Shown here one piece after another: positions 9,575-63,870 of a stretch of 64,000 bases of DNA. The stretch lies in NCBI GenBank assembly GCA_951799405.1, contig OX637342.1, positions 18,585,298 through 18,649,297 on the forward strand, given 5' to 3'. The DNA is from Agapetus fuscipes. Taxonomy: Eukaryota > Arthropoda > Insecta > Trichoptera > Glossosomatidae. Position 1 is the stretch's first letter, and each line of letters opens with the position of its first letter. Made by a program: the position numbers and the translations under genes. The notes beneath the pieces were generated by a model. That model was not told where the DNA came from, did not search any database, and saw only the letters and a list, made by a program, of their open reading frames with translations.

Positions 9575-10814
9575 TTTACTTACTTTACTTTCTTCGGCTC
9601 ATAAGCCTTGAAGGCTCAGGGCCTCCCGCACCACAATCCTCCAGGACTCTCTGTCTTGTGCAGCTTCCCTCCATGGTCCCCTCACTCCCAGAATTTCGGC
9701 ATCGGCTTCAATGTTGTCTGCCCACCGCATCCTGGGACGTCCGAGTGGTCTAACACCTGAAGGGGCACCATCCAAGACTGTTCTAATGATCCTGGAGTCC
9801 TCTGCACGTGCTACATGTCCGGCCCACTGGAGTCTTCTTGATTTCATTACCGACACTATGTTAGCATCTTGAAACACGGACATCAGCTCCGCGTTGGTCC
9901 GGATACGCCACCTGTCATCTTCAAATACAGGTCCGAGAATGCGACGAAGCATTTTGTTCTCAAAGACCTGGAGAGATTTTTCTTGTTTTTGAGTCAGACT
10001 CCAGGCTTCGCATCCGTACAACACAACTGGCCGAACAATGGAAGTGTAAATCTTGAATTTTGTGGAGCGGGATAGCCATTTTGAGCACAATAGCCCTCTA
10101 AGGCCAAAAAAAGCATTATTGCCGGAGTGAATTCGGGCATGTAATTCTGAGGATAGGATATTTTTGTCATTTATAAGGGTACCCAAGTATTTGAATGAAT
10201 TGCAGTTCTTAAACTTGTAATTATCTACATTCAAATCTTCTTGAATATCCCGCCGCGCCACAGGCAAGTATTCAGTTTTCCCCTCATTAATTCTCAATCC
10301 TATCCTCCTTGCCATTCTCTCCATTGGTAAGAAGAGCGCCCGGAGCTGTGCAGCGTTCTCTCCCAGAAGCACCACATCATCCGCATATCCCAGCAGCCTA
10401 ATGGTACTTCCTATGGTGATTCCACCATACACAGGTTTGGTTTCTCTCACAACCTTTTCTAAGGCTAGGTTGAAGAGCAATGGAGAAAGGGCGTCACCCT
10501 GCTTTAGGCCTGAACTGATCTCAAAGGGATCCGAGACCTGTCCCTGCAGCAGTATTTGAGCTCTTGAATTTTCTATGGATATCTGAACCAGTTTGATGAG
10601 TTTTCCAGGAATTCCATAGTCTCGTAAAACGCTCCACAGCCCCAAACGATGCACTGAGTCATAAGCAGTCTTGAAGTCGACAAAAAGGCAATGAGTATCT
10701 TGAGCATATTCCCACTTCTTCTCTAATATTTGCCTCAAAGAAAAGATCTGGTCCGTTGTGCTCCGATTCCTTCTGAAACCTGCTTGGTACTCTCCAAGAG
10801 CACATTCTCCAAGA
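9575..10814 (-). mobile_element. 5'-truncated non-LTR retrotransposon with RT domain
   Basis: The insertion is bounded by a 14-bp target duplication, acacaacaaattac, at 9561-9574 and 10815-10828. The 3' end (left) is a short TAAAG/TAAGT-type repeat, the 5' end is truncated within the reverse transcriptase, and the coding frame is open throughout. A single copy of the target exists in the uninterrupted LINE-A at about 5100. The clean ORF and intact duplication suggest a fairly young insertion. Confidence 0.85.
9599..10813 (-). CDS. LINE reverse transcriptase, N-terminally truncated
   Basis: Encodes the palm and C-terminal part of a non-LTR reverse transcriptase, which would copy element RNA by target-primed reverse transcription. 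The open frame extends upstream of the TTG-initiated 379-residue segment to the truncation point, adding EYQAGFRRNRSTTDQIFSL, a typical RT motif. Within the 379 residues, DFKTAYDSV (21-29) holds motif A, SGLKQGDALSPLLFN (about 76-90) is the following conserved block, and YADDVVLL (118-125) is the catalytic YADD box. The C-terminal region has YGCEAWSLT, LQWAGHVAR and RPLGRPRMRWADNIE, typical of arthropod LINEs, and ends REALSLQGL. No endonuclease domain remains and there is no true start codon. The clade is not assigned. Dead as an autonomous element. Confidence 0.85.
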   Translation of the reverse strand, partial: LGECALGEYQAGFRRNRSTTDQIFSLRQILEKKWEYAQDTHCLFVDFKTAYDSVHRLGLWSVLRDYGIPGKLIKLVQISIENSRAQILLQGQVSDPFEISSGLKQGDALSPLLFNLALEKVVRETKPVYGGITIGSTIRLLGYADDVVLLGENAAQLRALFLPMERMARRIGLRINEGKTEYLPVARRDIQEDLNVDNYKFKNCNSFKYLGTLINDKNILSSELHARIHSGNNAFFGLRGLLCSKWLSRSTKFKIYTSIVRPVVLYGCEAWSLTQKQEKSLQVFENKMLRRILGPVFEDDRWRIRTNAELMSVFQDANIVSVMKSRRLQWAGHVARAEDSRIIRTVLDGAPSGVRPLGRPRMRWADNIEADAEILGVRGPWREAAQDRESWRIVVREALSLQGL

Positions 10815-10970
10815 ACACAACAAATTACATTTTTAAAATCAACAGATTATAACATGTATGGACATCAAAAACTAACAGAAAACCAATTCTATTTTTAAAA
10901 ACCCTGGCCGCCAACATCACAGATTAACCGCCATTACTTTCTGTCCTTACACACTACTTTCATTTCCTCC
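10815..10970 (-). mobile_element. LINE-A, right half of the interrupted copy
   Basis: Continues the copy at 9300-9574: acaaattacatttttaaaatc, gaccacatcaaaa-like spacer, ccctggccgccaacatcac and gattaaccgcca, ending in decayed C-terminal codons. Confidence 0.7.
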
Positions 10971-22201: not shown

Positions 22202-22317
22202 TGCCAACGACACGCGGTGTACCTGAGCGGTAACCCATCCAAGTACTGTCCGCGCCCAATGTTGCTTAACTTCGGTGATCTATGGGAACCGGTGCTTTCA
22301 ACATGTTAACGTCGTTT
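22202..22317 (-). repeat. 5S rRNA-derived SINE head
   Basis: On the minus strand it aligns by eye along the whole 5S rRNA: AAAGCACCGGTTCCCATAG, ATCACCGAAGTTAAGCAAC, GCGCGGACAGTACTTGGATG, then ACACCGCGTGTCGTTGGCA. It contains the internal control region used by TFIIIA and RNA polymerase III. Mutations, and fusion to a SINE at three sites, argue against a functional rRNA gene. Confidence 0.8.
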
Positions 22318-22396
22318 TGTTCATGTTCATTTTAAATTGGGCTTTATATTGTAGGTTCACATGCGGTATTTTTAAGCGCGAACTTAAAGGTGTCTG

Positions 22397-45094: not shown

Positions 45095-45290
45095 TCTATA
45101 ATCTATAATCTAAGTTGCAAGGATATATTCATTTAAAGCTCTCAGATGTATGCCCACAAACAAACACGTGTAGTTCGCGCTTACAATTAATGCTGAATGT
45201 GTACTTACAAATAAAATCCAAACCTCAAATGAACATAAGCCCTACAACTTTTGCCGACCTTCCCTGACACAGGGGTGACATTGGCAAAGT
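45095..45290 (-). mobile_element. LINE-A 3'UTR, truncated
   Basis: Close to 38570-38768 in sequence and in truncation point (ggcaaagtgatcatcatc), so the two may derive from the same truncated source. A short plus tail follows at 45325-45360. Confidence 0.7.
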
Positions 45291-45706
45291 GATCATCATC
45301 ATTTTTTTTAAATAGTTGCGTTTTTTTTATATATCTTCGCAACTTAGGTTATAGATTACAAATTAAAAAAAGCAAAGTAGTTTTTGAGCAGGATCGTGGA
45401 AGGAAAAGTGTTTGGTATTTGATTTCCTCGAAAATTTGTAAAATATTTATGTTTCTTACTGTTGAATAATCTATCGCATAAAGGCAAGGCTTGGGCCCGA
45501 ATTTTGGCCTTTTAAGGGAAAACCACTAAATCGCATTAACGAAAACCTGTAAGGCTAAACAGCAAACAGTGGTGTAAAGTTTAATACAAAATTTGGTTCA
45601 TTAATGGACTAGGAACATTTGTAACGAAGGGATTATTTTCTTAAGTCATTGGGCCGGATTAGCTGTTAATCTGACTGCCAGAGGTGCTAGTCTCTTTTTT
45701 AATTCA

Positions 45707-46437: not shown

Positions 46438-46785
46438 GCAGTTTATCTGTAATGTTGGCGGCTAGTGCTAGGGTTTTTAAATTAGAATTTGGTATTTTGT
46501 ATTTGTTTTGATGTTTGTACATCCATATATTATTGGTTTATTTTAAAAATATAATTTAAATGTAAGTTGGTATGCGGCTGACCACCCATGCTGTAGAAAA
46601 TGGTTCACTTAGCCAATGTCACCCCTGTTTCAAGAAAGCTTGGCAGGAATTGCAGGGTGTATGTTCATTTGAGATTTGGGGTTTTATGGCATAGGTTCAC
46701 ATGCGGCTTACGTATATGCTTGTGAGATAGCATATAATGTGAATCTATAATGTTACATATATTTGCAACTTAGATTAGATTAAAT
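46438..46785 (+). mobile_element. LINE-A 3' end
   Basis: gtttatctgtaatgttggcg, gtaagttggtatgcggctga, tttcaagaaagcttgg and tgcaacttagattagattaa. Confidence 0.75.
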
Positions 46786-47194: not shown

Positions 47195-47440
47195 ATAATC
47201 TTTAATCTAAGTTGCAAGGATATATTCATTCAAAGCTCTCAGATGTATGCCCACAAACAACACGTGTAGTTCGCGCTTACAAATGCTGATTGTGTACTTA
47301 CAAATAAAATCCAAACCTCAAATGAACATTAGCCCTGCAACTCTTGCCGACATTCCCTGAAACAGGGGTGACATTGGCAAAGTGAACCATTTTTTACAGT
47401 ATGGGTGGTCAGCCTCATACCAACCTATAAGTCAAGGAAT
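47195..47440 (-). mobile_element. LINE-A 3'UTR, near full-length
   Basis: tttaatctaagttgcaagga to caacctataagtcaaggaat. The conserved imperfect hairpin spans 47342-47379: an outer TTGCC/GGCAA and an inner CCCTG-AAA-CAGGG. Confidence 0.85.
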
Positions 47441-47444
47441 AAAA

Positions 47445-48394: not shown

Positions 48395-48974
48395 TCTTCT
48401 TTTTTTTTAAGAAATCCAGTGCGGTAGACTTCCTAGATTCAAGAGACTCTAGGGGTCTAAAAAAAAAAAAAAACAAACAAACAAACAAAGATGTATGATA
48501 ATTTATTATTTTGTAAAATATTATATATAGTGTGGTATACTGTAAAAGTGGTAGATACACACGAAAAAACGGGGGGAAAAAAAAAAAAAAAAAAGATCTA
48601 TGACACTTGCTGTAGTGCCGCAGAGGTGTACGAGCTTGGTCGTCACTACAAAGCGCCAATACTCAAGCAAGACCCAGTTGCTGTAAGGCTGGATGGACCT
48701 TTAGTGACCGGTCTTTGGTAAAGGTTTTATGATTTCTTTCAACCCAGCAAAGAGCATGTTTGAAAATATGAATGGTATATTTTTTGTGCTCCGCCGGGAT
48801 CCGAATCCACAACTTTCCGTTAACGAGTCCGAAGTGTTGCCACTGGATTACGGACCGGTCAAGAATGCCAACGACACGCGGTGTACCCAAGCGGTCACCC
48901 ATCCAAGTAGCATCCTCTTCCAATGCTGCATAACTTCAGAACCGGTGCTTTCAACACATGGAATTGTCGTTGAC
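48395..48974 (-). mobile_element. 5S-tRNA composite SINE with type b tail
   Basis: The tail (48405-48460 gtgcggtagacttcctagat; 48600-48630 tgccgcagaggtgt) is split by a poly-A/AT segment (48460-48595). SINE-2 follows to ggattacggaccggtc (48860), then a 5S-like head 48866-48974 (minus: GTCGTTGGCA end, CACCGGTTCTGAAG). All three modules share one orientation. Confidence 0.75.
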
Positions 48975-51802: not shown

Positions 51803-51806
51803 ATAC
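51803..51806. other. Target-site duplication, left (atac)
   Basis: Four bases immediately before the LTR, repeated at 55712-55715. Confidence 0.8.
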
Positions 51807-52280
51807 TGTTACGAAATTAGGGTTCAATTGTCTTCAAATTAAAAATACACAGGTCTTCTTCAATAGTTATTTATTTTACACAGTTACAAAATTTATTTTC
51901 ACACTACTTTCTCGATTATTCTACTTGGTTTCGGTTCACTGATCAGATGGCTTCGATGTGTTTGTAAGTCGCTATGATACTGGCCCGCTCTGCAGGCCAT
52001 TCGCACCTTTATACTCTTCAGAGCAGTATGATCCAGAACTAAAGTCGCCAGACGGTTCCAGAGTAATTATTACTTCTCGACGCTTCACGTACTACCTAGA
52101 GATACAACCAAAATCCTACCTACAAATGTAATACAGTATTCCTATAATTACAACAAATACCTACTTAGCCTAGAGAATTCTACACTTATACATAATTATC
52201 GATCTTACCTACCAATACTTTTGAGGATTCTTATAACTATAACTATCCATACTTATTTCAATATTTATATTTACATAACA
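51807..52280 (-). repeat. 3' LTR
   Basis: Plus-strand termini tgttacgaaat and ttacataaca. Identical by eye to the 5' LTR except at 52259. The Gag stop codon abuts it at 52281. Confidence 0.9.
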
Positions 52281-52292
52281 CTACCCACCTAG
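52281..52292 (-). promoter_or_regulatory. Polypurine tract-like site overlapping the gag stop
   Basis: On the minus strand the last codons, GGTGGGTAG, form a short purine-rich stretch immediately before the 3' LTR, where plus-strand DNA synthesis is normally primed. It encodes the terminal Gly-Gly-stop. Confidence 0.5.
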
Positions 52293-54557
52293 ACTGTTTC
52301 GTCCCGGAACAGTCTTGACTCTGTGTAGGTAGGGGCATGCTGATCCACGTCGACACCCTGTGGTCAGGAAGAAGTGGCAGTCCACGGATTTCTCCCCACT
52401 GGCTCTCGGCTGCGCTTGCTCGCAGCACACCATGACGCTGATGCCGACTCCTGAGAACACTGCTTCAATCATACTCCGGATTATCCGCCAGTCTCGATTA
52501 GCGCGGCCGCCACCCATCTTCGGTATTGCCAGACGCGCCTGCTGATCCTCCAACATGTAGTCACGCAGCTCAACAAGGCCGTCCCACAATGCCTTGTAGT
52601 CCTCTTCCAGGTTGCTGGAATCCGGGACAACCAGGCAGTATGCTTGTTGACGCCCCTTCGGTAGTCTCAGAGCTCTTCCTTGCGGGCTGCTCGAGGGTTG
52701 CGGTTCTCCGAATTTGTATCGGAAGACCCGTGCAATTCCTCTAGACATATCTAGATCTTCCGGTACACTGCATGCCAGTGTGTGGTCCCCAGTGACCTCA
52801 AATAAGTCCTTGTGGACTTCTGTGGTCACCCCATGGCGAATCTTCTGTCCCTCTTGCACCCTGCTCCAGAACGTCTCAAACAGGGGCGCTTCTTTGGATG
52901 CGACGCATTTTTGTACTCTCTGGGCGGGCTGGTCATTGTTTGACCACTTTGCTCTTTGAGTTGGCCGGTGGTTATCCTTCATTCGAGCTCCCGCCTCCTT
53001 GGTGTTGCTGATCTTGGACTCCAGGTTGGCGATGGTGTCCTTCGTCCTGGGCCCCTGCCCAGCTTCCAGCTGCTGGAGCTTAGTCTTAAGCCCCTTGTTC
53101 TGTCTCTCCAGGCTCAGCACAGTCTCGTGCAACTCGTCCCTCTCGGCCTCCGCTGTTCGCCGGACCCTTTCACTGCTGGCCAAGTTCTTCGTCAGCTGCC
53201 TGTTCTCCGTCTCCATGACTTTGACCTTTCTCTCGGCATCCTGGAGCTGTTTCCTCAGCCGTTTGTTCATCTCCATGGTGGTCTCTACATCCTTGCGGTC
53301 GTCTTCCAATTTCTCCGGTCCTTGAGACTTTGGGCACCTCGCGCTCAGGTGTCCTTGCTGGCCACACGTCCAGCAGTGCGCCTTCTGTCTCGTTGGCTCA
53401 AGTTGCTGCAGCACTTTTTCTATTATTTCCTCGGTTGTAGGTAGTTTGACCTCCTCTGCCTTGATTGCACAAACCCTGGCGTGGCCCCTGATGGACTGTT
53501 TGACAGCCTCAAATTCGAGAGCTCGGCTTAGCGCCTCGTTCAACGTCTTCGGAAGAGCCAGCTTCACTGCTTGCTGCGTCTCCCATTCTCTCAATCCGTT
53601 CAGGAACTTGTCCACTGCCAAGCTCTCGCAGATGTCATCAGGGAATGTCGGGTAAGCGTCTCGTACTAGGTGGACGATGTCCATCTCAAACTCCTGGAGG
53701 CTCTCGTTGGGCTTCTGCACCCTTGTGTTCAGCTGTGACTTGTACAGCTGCCCCAGGCACTTGTGGCCATAGCGCATATCCAAGCGCTGCTTCAGCTGCC
53801 CAAAGTCACCGCGGTTGTCCAGGGGTATGGCCTGCAGAACCCTGAGAGCGTCTCCTCGGAGCGACAGGCTGAGAACCGAAGCCTTCTTCTGCTGGCTCCA
53901 GGCTCCCATCATGGCAGCCGTCTCAAAGAGGGTCAAGTATTCCTCCCACGACGTCTTCCCGTCGAAGGTTGGGAGGTTGTGCTTGGCTAGGGAAGGGTCA
54001 TCATCCCCTCTTGTGATCCTGGTTGGAGTTGAGCATCCCTGGTCGGTCTCGTCGTGAAGGCCGCTTTTGGGGGAGATTCTGGTGGACTCCATCTGGCACT
54101 TGTCAGCCAGCTCGGCACGCAGACGGTCTTCCAGGTTTGACATCCGAGTCTCCATTTCCCCCTTCAGGGCCGAGAGGTTGGTTGTCATCTTCTCCTCTAT
54201 TTCTCCTTTCAGGGTTGTGAGACTATCCGCTATCTCCGCCTTCAGGGTCCTGGCGTTGTCAGCCATCTCCGCCTTCAGGTCTTCCCTCAGGGTCTTGGAA
54301 TTGTCAGCCATCTCCACTTTCAGCTTTTCCTCCATGGAAGTGAAGTTTCCGGTGATGCTGAGGTTTAGCTCGTCCAAGGCGCGGTCCCCTCCAGACGCCA
54401 TGACAAAATATGCCGGGTCTTCGCCTGACTGTTCTAAGGCCTCCATGAGGCGTGCCTGTAAGGCCGCCTTCCCTCCTGAGGTCTCCAGGTCCCTCTCCAG
54501 AAGCTCATTTTTAAGCTCAGTGACTTTGAGGTCCTTGATGTTCACTTTGGTTGCCAT
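52281..54557 (-). CDS. Gag-like polyprotein: SAP, capsid, CCHC, macro-like, CCCH
   Basis: 758 residues from an ATG to a TAG touching the 3' LTR. Residues 7-41 look like a SAP DNA/RNA-binding helix pair (DLKVTELKNELLERDLETSG). 70-155 is a heptad-rich coiled coil. 190-352 is a retrotransposon capsid-like region (LPTFDGKTSWEEYLTLFE; YKSQLNTRVQKPNESLQEF). C395, C398, H403 and C408 form a CX2CX4HX4C nucleocapsid knuckle. 420-515 is a second coiled coil. 580-712 resembles a TARG1/ALC1-type macro domain, which binds ADP-ribose: DLFEVTGDHTLACSVPE, MSRGIARVFRYKFG, then LAIPKMGGGRANRDW and IIRSMIEAVF. By eye, the catalytic Lys and Asp of TARG1 are not conserved, favouring binding over hydrolysis. C727, C735, C741 and H745 form a CX7CX5CX3H CCCH finger. 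GC-rich relative to its surroundings. The macro call is from recognition, not a search. Confidence 0.85.
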   Translation of the reverse strand: MATKVNIKDLKVTELKNELLERDLETSGGKAALQARLMEALEQSGEDPAYFVMASGGDRALDELNLSITGNFTSMEEKLKVEMADNSKTLREDLKAEMADNARTLKAEIADSLTTLKGEIEEKMTTNLSALKGEMETRMSNLEDRLRAELADKCQMESTRISPKSGLHDETDQGCSTPTRITRGDDDPSLAKHNLPTFDGKTSWEEYLTLFETAAMMGAWSQQKKASVLSLSLRGDALRVLQAIPLDNRGDFGQLKQRLDMRYGHKCLGQLYKSQLNTRVQKPNESLQEFEMDIVHLVRDAYPTFPDDICESLAVDKFLNGLREWETQQAVKLALPKTLNEALSRALEFEAVKQSIRGHARVCAIKAEEVKLPTTEEIIEKVLQQLEPTRQKAHCWTCGQQGHLSARCPKSQGPEKLEDDRKDVETTMEMNKRLRKQLQDAERKVKVMETENRQLTKNLASSERVRRTAEAERDELHETVLSLERQNKGLKTKLQQLEAGQGPRTKDTIANLESKISNTKEAGARMKDNHRPTQRAKWSNNDQPAQRVQKCVASKEAPLFETFWSRVQEGQKIRHGVTTEVHKDLFEVTGDHTLACSVPEDLDMSRGIARVFRYKFGEPQPSSSPQGRALRLPKGRQQAYCLVVPDSSNLEEDYKALWDGLVELRDYMLEDQQARLAIPKMGGGRANRDWRIIRSMIEAVFSGVGISVMVCCEQAQPRASGEKSVDCHFFLTTGCRRGSACPYLHRVKTVPGRNSLGG

Positions 54558-55220
54558 TTTTTTTTTAAATTTACTTCAAAACAAAAATATTTTTAAATTT
54601 ATTTAATACAAGTTTTGAGTTTTATATATATAGCTGTTTTGAATACGTACTTTAGCAAAAATAATAATTTGTCTGATAACACTGATTGGTAGGTAGGTAC
54701 TGTCTTTTAATATTTATTTTTAATTCACCAATATTTTTAACATAATAATGTCTGATAGTACATAATTATTTATTTCGTCTCAAGTCTTTCAAACACACAG
54801 GTAGGTACTTAATGTACATTCACACACTTGTAAACAAAGGATAGTTATTCAAAAACTTTTTCTCGATGAATCTGGAACGTTCTTTTGTAATATTTTTCAA
54901 GATTTTTATTTATTTATTTTATTTTTTTTAATCACACACAATAATAAAAAAACTATGGTCCAATTTGATGACTTTCTCAATGCGGTAAAATAGTCATTAT
55001 GTTATGTCCAGAATTATGTCCAGAATTATGTTCCATATGATGTTCCAGAATTTATAAGCAACTTGCTTTTGCGTCTTTTCTTTTAACAAAAATTTATTTA
55101 AACACTTGTTTTCACAAAAGTCAGTTCACACAAAGTTCAATTTGAATAAAGTTCATTTTAACACTATTTAATTTATTTTATTTATTTTTAGACAGAAGAT
55201 CTTAATTTTTCTTGACAATT
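54558..55220 (-). other. Untranslated leader of the LTR element
   Basis: About 660 bp, AT-rich, between the primer site and the gag start. It could hold packaging or splice signals. No ORF or structure recognised. Confidence 0.6.
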
Positions 55221-55235
55221 CCGCACCTGACGCCA
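55221..55235 (-). promoter_or_regulatory. tRNA primer-binding-like site
   Basis: Minus strand TGGCGTCAGGTGCGG, two bases after the 5' LTR. It starts with the required TGG (pairing with tRNA-CCA). The tRNA cannot be named with confidence; it is loosely like a Leu-type end. Confidence 0.6.
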
Positions 55236-55237
55236 AT

Positions 55238-55711
55238 TGTTACGAAATTAGGGTTCAATTGTCTTCAAATTAAAAATACACAGGTCTTCTTCAATAGTTA
55301 TTTATTTTACACAGTTACAAAATTTATTTTCACACTACTTTCTCGATTATTCTACTTGGTTTCGGTTCACTGATCAGATGGCTTCGATGTGTTTGTAAGT
55401 CGCTATGATACTGGCCCGCTCTGCAGGCCATTCGCACCTTTATACTCTTCAGAGCAGTATGATCCAGAACTAAAGTCGCCAGACGGTTCCAGAGTAATTA
55501 TTACTTCTCGACGCTTCACGTACTACCTAGAGATACAACCAAAATCCTACCTACAAATGTAATACAGTATTCCTATAATTACAACAAATACCTACTTAGC
55601 CTAGAGAATTCTACACTTATACATAATTATCGATCTTACCTACCAATACTTTTGAGGATTCTTATAACTATAACTATCCATACTTATTTTAATATTTATA
55701 TTTACATAACA
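55238..55711 (-). repeat. 5' LTR
   Basis: 474 bp. On the minus strand a TATAAAGGTGCG box lies at about 55433-55444 and AATAAA signals follow at about 55300-55330, giving a U3-R-U5 order. Flanked on the right by the atac duplication (55712-55715). Confidence 0.9.
55439..55444 (-). promoter_or_regulatory. TATA box in the 5' LTR
   Basis: TATAAA on the minus strand, roughly 270 bases after the start of the LTR in element orientation. The same box is in the 3' LTR at 52008-52013. Confidence 0.5.
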
Positions 55712-55724
55712 ATACTAACAAGTG

Positions 55725-55890
55725 GGTTCAATGCTGAATGTGTACATACAAATTAAAATCCAAACCTCAAATGAACATAGACCTGCAACTTTTGCCGACC
55801 TTCTCTGGAACAGGGGTCATATTGGCAAAGTGAAACATTTTTTACAGTATGGGTGGTCAGTCTCATATCAACCTATAAATCAAGGAATAT
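55725..55890 (-). mobile_element. LINE-A 3'UTR, truncated
   Basis: atgctgaatgtgtacataca, ctctggaacaggggtc, aacctataaatcaaggaata. Confidence 0.75.
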
Positions 55891-56124: not shown

Positions 56125-56340
56125 TCAACTTAAAGGTTGGTATGCGGCTGACCACCCATGCTGTAGAAAATCATTCACTTTGCCAATGTCACCCATGTTT
56201 CAGGGAAGGTCGGCAAAAGTTGTAGGGTGTATTTTTGTAGATTTGGATTTTTATGCTGTAGGTTCATATGCAACATATGCGATCGCATATAATGTGAATC
56301 TCCAATGTTACATATCTTTGCAACTTAGATTAGATAGATT
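56125..56340 (+). mobile_element. LINE-A 3'UTR
   Basis: ctcaacttaaaggttggtat to gcaacttagattagatagat, with internal deletions. Confidence 0.75.
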
Positions 56341-60745: not shown

Positions 60746-60864
60746 GTCAACGACGACACCATGTTAAAAGCACCTGTTCTCATCAGATCACCGAAGTTAA
60801 GCAACATTGGGCGCGGATGCTACTTGGATTGATGACCGCTTAGCTACACCGCGTGTCGTTGGCA
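60746..60864 (+). repeat. Full-length 5S rRNA-derived SINE head (119 bp)
   Basis: Reads end to end as a 5S rRNA: GTCAACGACGACACCATGTT, AAAAGCACCTGTTCTCATC, AGATCACCGAAGTTAAGCAA, CATTGGGCGCGGATGCTACT, TGGATTGATGACCGCTTAG, CTACACCGCGTGTCGTTGGC. 119 nt is the usual 5S length. Substitutions in stems and the adjoining SINE argue for a retroposed module rather than a working gene. Confidence 0.85.
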
Positions 60865-60871
60865 TTTCTTG

Positions 60872-61195
60872 GACCAGACCGTAGTCCAGTGGCAACACTT
60901 TGGGCTCGTAAATGGAAGCTCGTGGTTTCGAATCCCGGCGGAGCACAAAAAATATACAATTTATATTTCCAAACATGCTCTTCGCTGGGTTGAAAAAATT
61001 CATAAAACCTTTACAAAAGACCGGTCACTAAAAAGGTCCATCCAGCTTAACAAAACCTGGGTCTTTCTTGAGTATTGGCGTTTTGTAGCGACGACCAAGC
61101 TCGTACATCTCTGCGGCACTACAATAAGTTTCATAGACCCCTAGAGTCTCTGGAATCTAGGGAGTCTCCCGCACAGGATTTCTTAAAAAAAAAAG
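60872..61195 (+). mobile_element. SINE-2 body with type b tail, downstream of the 5S head
   Basis: A box cgtagtccagtggcaacact, B box gtttcgaatccc, body (gaccggtcactaaaaaggtc; tcttgagtattggcg), then accaagctcgtacatctctg, cggcactacaataagtttc, cccctagagtctctgg, gtctcccgcacaggatttc and A-run. With 60746-60864 this is the most complete 5S-tRNA SINE in the window, about 450 bp. Confidence 0.8.
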
Positions 61196-63029: not shown

Positions 63030-63870
63030 TGAAGCATGAGGTATGAGGCTGACCTCCCATACCTAAAAAATGTTCACTGAACGAATGTTTCTCTGTTCCT
63101 GAAAAGGTCGGCAAAATTGCAGGGCTTATGGTCAAGAGAGGCTGAAATTTTTATTTGTAATTACACATGCAGCGTTTGTAAGCGCAAACTCACTCATGTC
63201 TGCTTGGGGGCATGCATTCAATATGAATTATAAAATGTATGTATGCAACTTAGATTTATATTCTAAAATTAAGAACATCAAGTGCTACAATTATATGTTA
63301 GCGTGAAAGAACATTTGCCAGCTTGTGGGTGTGCATTGTATTTGAATCATCAAAACTCTTTTTGCAACTTAAGATTATAAATTAAGATAACCGTTGTTTA
63401 AGGATTTTTCAAACCCAAACTCCTTGACCTAAGGGTTAGTATGAGGCTTACCACCCATATCGCATAAATGGGTTCACTTAGCTAATGTTCCCCCTGTTTC
63501 TGAATAGGTCGGCAAAAGTTGCATGGCTTATGGTTATGAGAGGCTGAAATTTTTATTTGTAATTACACATGCAGCATTTGTAAGCGCAAAGTCACTCATG
63601 TCTGCTTGGGGGCATGCATTGAATATGAATTATAAAATGTATGTATGCAACTTAGATTTATATTCTAAAATTAAAAACATCAAGTGCCACAATTAAATGT
63701 TAGCGTGAAATGACATTTGCCAGTTTGTGGGCGTGCATTCAATTTGAATCATCAAATAACTTTTTTTGCAACTTTAGATTATAAATTAAATTTAACATTG
63801 TTGAAGGATTTTTTAAACTCAAATCCTTGACGGATAGGTAAGTATGAGCTTGAATACCCATATCAGAGGC
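63030..63870 (+). mobile_element. Diverged LINE-A 3'UTR tandem duplication
   Basis: Units 63030-63415 and 63418-63820 are alike over their length (gaggctgaaatttttatttg, gcaacttagatttatattc, ttagcgtgaaa.gaacattt-like) and a third begins at 63822. They preserve the aggtcggcaaaa hairpin region but lie far from the main family, so this is an older or separate subfamily. Confidence 0.65.

Follow-up and report, generated by a model that had tools for sequence, protein, structure and literature searches.

What is a macrodomain doing at the end of a retrotransposon Gag, and how did it get there? The question is raised by a single open reading frame (ORF) of 758 amino acids at 52281..54557 (minus strand) of a 64,000-nucleotide stretch of the genome of the insect Agapetus fuscipes (Trichoptera), here called the window (assembly GCA_951799405.1, contig OX637342.1, positions 18,585,298 to 18,649,297 of the forward strand). 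An earlier reading of this DNA, made from the letters alone and referred to below as the sequence-only reading, had described the frame as a fusion of Gag with a TARG1/ALC1-like macrodomain and a CCCH zinc finger, and our analysis confirmed that combination. We found that the frame belongs to a young, multicopy retrotransposon family that encodes Gag only, and that its macrodomain-CCCH tail matches, almost letter for letter, the C-terminal extension of the Pol protein of a partner family in the same genome.

The frame lies within a complete element with long terminal repeats (LTRs), at 51807-55711. All features of the element are on the minus strand, except that the target-site duplication, GTAT, has no strand; it is present on the 5′ side at 55712..55715 and on the 3′ side at 51803..51806. 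The 5′ LTR (55238..55711) and the 3′ LTR (51807..52280; TGTTATG...CGTAACA) are each 474 bp long and are identical at 473 of 474 positions, differing at one. A 5′ untranslated leader of 680 nt (54558..55237) contains a putative primer binding site, TGGCGTCAGGTGCGG (55221..55235), which starts 2 nt past the inner end of the 5′ LTR. The protein then begins with a SAP domain (residues 7-42, 54432..54539; Pfam SAP E 1e-8) and an N-terminal coiled coil (residues 51-175, 54033..54407), in which variability among copies is highest, and continues with a capsid (CA) region (residues 188-360, 53478..53996) and a CCHC zinc knuckle (residues 395-410, 53328..53375). These are followed by a 386-nt, myosin-tail-like coiled-coil segment (residues about 412-540, 52937..53322) and by the tail (residues 541-758, 52284..52936), which comprises a TARG1-like macrodomain (residues 579-710, 52428..52823) and a CCCH zinc-finger motif (residues 727-745, 52323..52379; Pfam zf-CCCH 19.3 bits, below the cut-off of 20.5). 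The stop codon abuts the 3′ LTR. There is no second ORF of at least 110 codons on the coding strand within the element and no pol ORF, and the element therefore encodes Gag only. An LTR pair around an internal region, bounded by a short target duplication, is the structure expected of Ty3/gypsy elements, and the Gag is homologous to those of Pol-bearing members of this group (a capsid clade shared with the protein P0028, and the partner Gag L121, see below). The element has no reverse transcriptase (RT) of its own in the order protease, RT, RNase H, integrase, and, with no pol ORF, does not count as an autonomous Ty3/gypsy element. Its make-up, with LTRs, a lone gag ORF and no pol, is that of a TR-GAG element.

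The window element is one of many. Copies were searched for in the window's own assembly (618 Mb, 148 contigs), where 59 near-full-length protein matches were scored among 2508 first-look candidates, 57 of them without an internal stop. The 50 copies that we read are those of the 59 that score best to the window, and include the window's own (L002). An ORF of at least 700 amino acids is present in 49 of these 50, and in all 49 the four ligands of the CCHC knuckle and the four ligands of the CCCH finger are unchanged. LTR pairs are on average 0.9965 identical (minimum 0.9914 among 44 alignable pairs, the identities including a few flanking bases). Exact 4-bp target duplications surround 39 of the 50 copies, all 39 with TA in the middle, the commonest being ATAT (13), ATAC (10) and GTAT (8), and the putative primer-binding-site motif is the same or nearly the same wherever the 5′ LTR was resolved. 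The coiled-coil segment, searched as DNA, gave 235 first-look candidates in the genome, and all 40 that were scored are identical over 393 nt. The Gag-only family is recent, successful and present in high copy number. A domesticated host gene is ruled out by the LTRs, the target duplications and the multiple copies.

The source of the tail is indicated by the second family, the partner. Its Pol was recovered in 32 scored matches of 3541 candidates, which are 59-61% identical to P0021, a Pol relative from the protein database. All 32 reach residue 1378 of P0021 or beyond and thereby cover the macrodomain and CCCH finger to their end or past it, and 16 are free of stops. The partner was read as small pieces, the stretch between its Gag piece (L121) and a Pol piece (L119, on contig C33) being known from the search match. 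L119 is the tail of a stop-free Pol copy. Directly after the integrase C-terminal domain it is 99.7% identical in DNA, over 653 nt, to the part of the window ORF that encodes residues 541-758, and this is followed by an LTR that is 96.8% identical to the window LTR over all 474 nt. At the other end, the match to L121 begins inside the window's 5′ leader and extends up to nucleotide 1235 of the ORF, with DNA identities of 91.7% in the leader and 87.6% in Gag; counted from the first Met, the partner Gag is 458 residues long, and it stops shortly past the CCHC knuckle. The protease, RT, RNase H and integrase that lie between Gag and the tail in the partner are gone from the window element, and the 386-nt coil is absent from both the Gag and the Pol tail pieces of the partner. 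On these alignments, the window element is Gag up to residue 412, a 386-nt coil foreign to those pieces, and the last 218 codons of Pol. The sequence-only reading had proposed that the element captured, or evolved with, an ADP-ribose-reading module, and had conjectured that this could shield its particles from ADP-ribosylated host factors or direct them there. Capture by Gag itself had to be abandoned, as the partner Pol holds the same segment at 99.7% identity. In the macrodomain tree, the window and L119 join a piece of a second partner subfamily, L120 (support 100/99), on a long branch within the clade of macrodomains at the Pol C-terminus (99/96).

The coil that separates the two parts was likely captured from a host gene of the myosin-tail kind. 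On its own, the segment matches Pfam Myosin_tail_1 at 46.0 bits (E 2.4e-12; the cut-off is 38.1), and the Gag N-terminal coil (residues 51-175), taken as a control, scores 16.9 bits. The best match among PDB chains is Myosin-10, at an E of 0.0012, which for a coiled coil is no more than suggestive. We also considered that the segment might be a copy of the N-terminal coil of Gag or a part of Pol, and rejected this; its best match among the collected proteins has an E of 0.37.

The sequence-only reading would have been refuted by the lack of any significant profile or structural match to a macrodomain. The nearest fold among solved structures is that of TARG1, which places the domain with the ALC1-like/TARG1 macrodomains. 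We aligned 54 macrodomains, namely OARD1 (human TARG1), the window and 52 database matches described below. The catalytic residues Lys84 and Asp125 of TARG1 (numbered from the N-terminus and matched to the aligned chain) are both kept in 53 rows. The window domain, which unlike the human enzyme is part of a retrotransposon protein, instead has Pro at residue 645 (52623..52625) and Ala at residue 686 (52500..52502), and so lacks the Lys84-Asp125 pair of a TARG1-type hydrolase. The sequence-only reading had noticed this loss by eye, and it held up in all 49 long-ORF copies, the window's included. Pro/Ala is also what the partner piece L119 shows, and L120 has Arg/Ala. Because the partner Pol shares Pro/Ala, the catalytic loss is older than the Gag fusion, and its origin together with the fusion was rejected; judging by these alignments, the loss belongs to the lineage in the A. 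fuscipes genome. With the pair intact in 53 of the 54 rows, we predict that the broader family erases ADP-ribose and that the window lineage reads it. In the alignment, the window also keeps Asp20 and Gly43 (loop 1) and Gly121 and Gly123 (loop 2) of the TARG1 pocket.

The predicted reader role is nevertheless uncertain because the ALC1-like hydrolase SCO6735 also lacks both catalytic residues, while DarG lacks one of the two (both from an excerpt of PMC7050489, which names residue 125 as Glu where the aligned TARG1 chain has Asp). With these precedents, the domain could be an unusual hydrolase that removes ADP-ribose without the Lys/Asp pair, and guards element RNA, complementary DNA or Gag from PARP-type modification. 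Erasing is also likely to be the ancestral activity, as both residues persist in the remaining aligned Pol macrodomains. However, L119 (Pro/Ala) and L120 (Arg/Ala) have both left the pair. Their branch exceeds those of the relatives in length, as would fit a function that was relaxed or altered, and we consider a surviving hydrolase improbable.

The macrodomain in Pol is not confined to this genome. Thirteen of 14 Gag relatives in the protein database have no macrodomain; the exception, P0011, carries one after its integrase. A search with the macrodomain part of P0011 returned 52 proteins, all of which carry a macrodomain. Eighteen are labelled as Pol with the macrodomain after the integrase, and all 18 keep the catalytic pair. 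In three others (P0055, P0057 and P0059) the domain comes before integrase or between it and RNase H, and in two (P0052 and P0066) it precedes the protease or RT. A further 28 are labelled as insect host proteins, and one is VP5 of Banna virus. The position of the macrodomain was checked with Pfam for P0011, P0016, P0021, P0024, P0050, P0052, P0055, P0057, P0059 and P0066; the other ‘host’ and ‘Pol C-terminal’ labels rest on names, listed Pfam families and macrodomain coordinates. The order protease, RT, RNase H, integrase is present in P0016 and P0021. Of the 18 C-terminal cases, 11 have a CCCH pattern behind the macrodomain and 7 are without it. The domain occupies three places in Pol. In the tree, P0050 and the other Pol positions lie outside the Pol-C-terminal clade, although a single clade for all Pol macrodomains was not rejected (p-AU 0.116), and several insertions of the macrodomain into Pol are possible. 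The Gag side can be connected to these elements as well. P0028 is one protein with a capsid (1-107), Pol, and a macrodomain (1255-1418), and the window CA falls into a 100/99 clade with this capsid in an alignment with 47% of columns filled. The Gag P0008, from the same CA clade, and the Pol P0021 may derive from one element because their source contigs are equal in size (5955).

Several observations on these relatives stand by themselves. The catalytic pair is present in all five of P0052, P0055, P0057, P0059 and P0066. Banna virus VP5 (P0065) has a macrodomain (Pfam E 2e-7) that keeps the pair and scores among insect host and Pol macrodomains. Long insect host proteins in the range P0032-P0064, such as Tribolium LOC661444 (P0035), have a TARG1-like macrodomain with the catalytic pair, and several insect host macrodomain proteins have a second, weak macro-like stretch; these host proteins may be a donor or a domesticated copy. 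Three models from Aromia moschata (P0022, P0023 and P0024) join Gag directly to an integrase C-terminus, macrodomain and CCCH finger with no RT. These are either splicing artefacts of gene prediction or else a second instance of a pol-deleted Gag-macro element. P0011 and P0028 are filed under the fungus Erysiphe pulchra but are animal-like in sequence, possibly through assembly contamination or transfer. A protein search with residues 560-758 scored none of 434 candidates; its length limit excluded the 1370-aa Pols, and P0011, within the limit, was missed. The whole protein as query gave four pattern matches in viral contigs, none of them a relative. With the macrodomain alignment as query, 67 loci in IMG/VR contigs (L032-L098) had TARG1-like macrodomains of 22-32% identity, and a phage search found one macrodomain protein, ORF LpeD_101 of phage LpeD, under two accessions.

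Whether the tail matters as a protein can be approached through the differences between copies. In one codon analysis the stop-bearing copies L003 and L013 were left out; in a second, L013 was left out and 49 copies were kept. These tests assume independent changes, and copies from one burst are not independent. The ratio of non-synonymous to synonymous polymorphism (pN/pS) is 0.15 in the SAP domain, 0.50 in the first coil, 0.12 in CA, 0.64 (0.22-2.26) in the nucleocapsid (NC) and 0.40 in the macrodomain (bootstrap 0.19-0.89). Macrodomain changes common to several copies number 5 synonymous and 2 non-synonymous (p 0.008-0.023 in an ad hoc binomial test). Over residues 413-750, the shared changes number 7 synonymous and 4 non-synonymous; a rough binomial test puts the departure of this shared set from neutrality at p 0.004-0.016. 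These results suggest, though not strongly, that the tail was under constraint while the family replicated. Divergence is also distributed unevenly. At synonymous sites it is 0.12-0.14 over the first 175 residues but under 0.01 beyond residue 361. Among 26 aligned copies (L002-L031) nucleotide divergence is patchy, with more differences in the LTR and the first 190 codons and almost none past codon 361. Exchange of the 5′ half with other lineages and a recent spread of the coil-macro-CCCH block would give such a pattern, and the copies are probably a mosaic produced by template switching with partner lineages.

The reading we favour, with a probability of about 0.5, is that the window holds a young, high-copy, Gag-only element of Ty3/gypsy type that carries the macro-CCCH tail of its partner's Pol on its own Gag, likely borrows the partner's RT and integrase, and has a macrodomain predicted to bind ADP-ribose without hydrolysing it. 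A partner-like ancestor would have lost the protease, RT, RNase H and integrase, and the coil, likely from a myosin-tail-like gene, would have linked Gag in frame to the last codons of Pol. The partner would supply RT and integrase, and the LTR, leader and capsid common to both elements would let window-element RNA into partner-made particles, giving mixed particles. The tail itself would bind ADP-ribose or RNA and act as a tether. On the partner integrase, it could anchor the integration complex at host sites that are ADP-ribosylated or rich in RNA; each window-element Gag would then display the same tether, many per particle, and Gag-only particles would thereby follow those of the partner.

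A number of points weigh against this reading. Chromoviruses carry a chromodomain at the C-terminus of integrase, and the chromatin-tether step is an analogy with that domain; likewise, the proposed myosin origin of the coil rests on a profile match. Constraint is not significant for the second coil (pN/pS 0.49, 0.19-1.19) or the CCCH tail (0.73, 0.24-3.29), and over residues 413-750 the split among singletons (24 synonymous, 47 non-synonymous) is not significantly different from that among the shared changes (Fisher p 0.09). The pocket, apart from the kept residues, has diverged: AHC has become ACS, GCGLD has become GGGRA, and Gly41 is replaced by Ser, which most Pol relatives also have at this position. 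With this divergence, ADP-ribose binding could also have been lost.

Several of the same data bear on a different view of the tail, in which it is an inert passenger: an old 3′ end of pol left in frame and kept for sequence acting in cis near the 3′ LTR (polypurine tract, packaging or LTR context). The near identity of the tail to that of the partner and the youth of the burst, attested by the 40 identical coil segments, mean that little time has elapsed, and neither the CCCH tail considered alone nor the Fisher comparison gives significant evidence for selection. Yet the upper bootstrap bound for the macrodomain pN/pS is below 1 and its shared changes are mostly synonymous, the frame is open in 57 of 59 scored copies, and in the wider family the domain has been retained in Pol across large distances. 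We regard a passenger tail as rather unlikely. An alternative in which the macrodomain and CCCH finger bind RNA or DNA for packaging or integration, and ADP-ribose plays no part, seems very improbable. CCCH fingers commonly bind RNA, the tail comes after integrase in Pol, and 11 of 18 C-terminal relatives show the finger pattern; but the other 7 have a macrodomain without it, and the TARG1 catalytic pair is kept in all 18.

The favoured reading, of a Gag-only element with a predicted ADP-ribose-binding tail, can be extended, tentatively, to a broader and doubtful scenario. In it, an entire lineage of animal Ty3/gypsy elements would have a ‘macro-integrase’, with a TARG1-like macrodomain that reads or erases ADP-ribose and was added to Pol more than once, at the three places described above. 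In A. fuscipes the macrodomain would have decayed until only ADP-ribose tethering was left. A Gag-only parasite would then have stolen the tether, along with part of a myosin tail from the host, and would use it to guide its own particles to the sites that the partner targets.

Parallels for parts of this arrangement exist. The plant TR-GAG elements likewise have LTRs, a lone Gag ORF and no pol, with an intact relative possibly supplying the missing proteins, and transposition of such a Gag-only element has been seen in Arabidopsis (excerpt of PMC8704663). Unlike these, the window element is in an insect genome, and its Gag is extended by the coil and the macro-CCCH tail of a partner Pol; the likeness is one of structure, not descent. 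The chromoviruses mentioned above are also Ty3/gypsy elements with an extra domain that reads or edits a host modification, as are, according to PMC9289625, orchid Gypsy elements that carry an AlkB RNA demethylase domain. In the window and partner elements, the modification would be ADP-ribose. Fish epsilon-like endogenous retroviruses have additional ORFs for macrodomain proteins (Basta et al. 2009, via an excerpt of PMC4977317) and, likened here by description, are also retroelements with a macrodomain. However, they are vertebrate retroviruses with separate ORFs, whereas in the window and partner elements the macrodomain is fused to the Gag or Pol of a Ty3/gypsy-type element. Extra ORFs are also described for rotifer elements (excerpt of PMC5408684). 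Among the matches listed in open-access literature, we found no report of a macrodomain in the Pol or Gag of Ty3/gypsy elements or in LTR retrotransposons.

ADP-ribosylation is a known battleground of hosts and RNA viruses, on which the viruses respond with macrodomains. If our reading is true, a macrodomain on the integrase side would extend this conflict, or a principle of targeting, to transposons, and raises the question of whether ADP-ribose offers retrotransposons a route to integration sites or protection for their cargo. The lineage-wide presence of a macrodomain in Pol is of greater interest than the Gag fusion. The fusion, for its part, resembles a natural experiment, in which an active-looking parasite family dropped every enzyme of its partner and kept the macro-CCCH tail, and the relatives with the catalytic pair, set against the window lineage without it, suggest that eraser and reader functions are separable.

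The element adjoins copies of dispersed repeats at window positions 55730-55889 and 56136-56235, with further copies of these at 45189-45348, 46566-46665, 47282-47441 and 63435-63534. A 415-aa frame at 9599-10846 (minus strand) appears by eye to be the last part of a non-LTR reverse transcriptase. Rfam identifies three 5S rRNA-like sequences (22202-22319, 48866-48974 and 60746-60864), of which the latter two lie inside matching inverted repeats (48700-48937 and 60793-61032) and resemble a 5S-derived short interspersed nuclear element (SINE).

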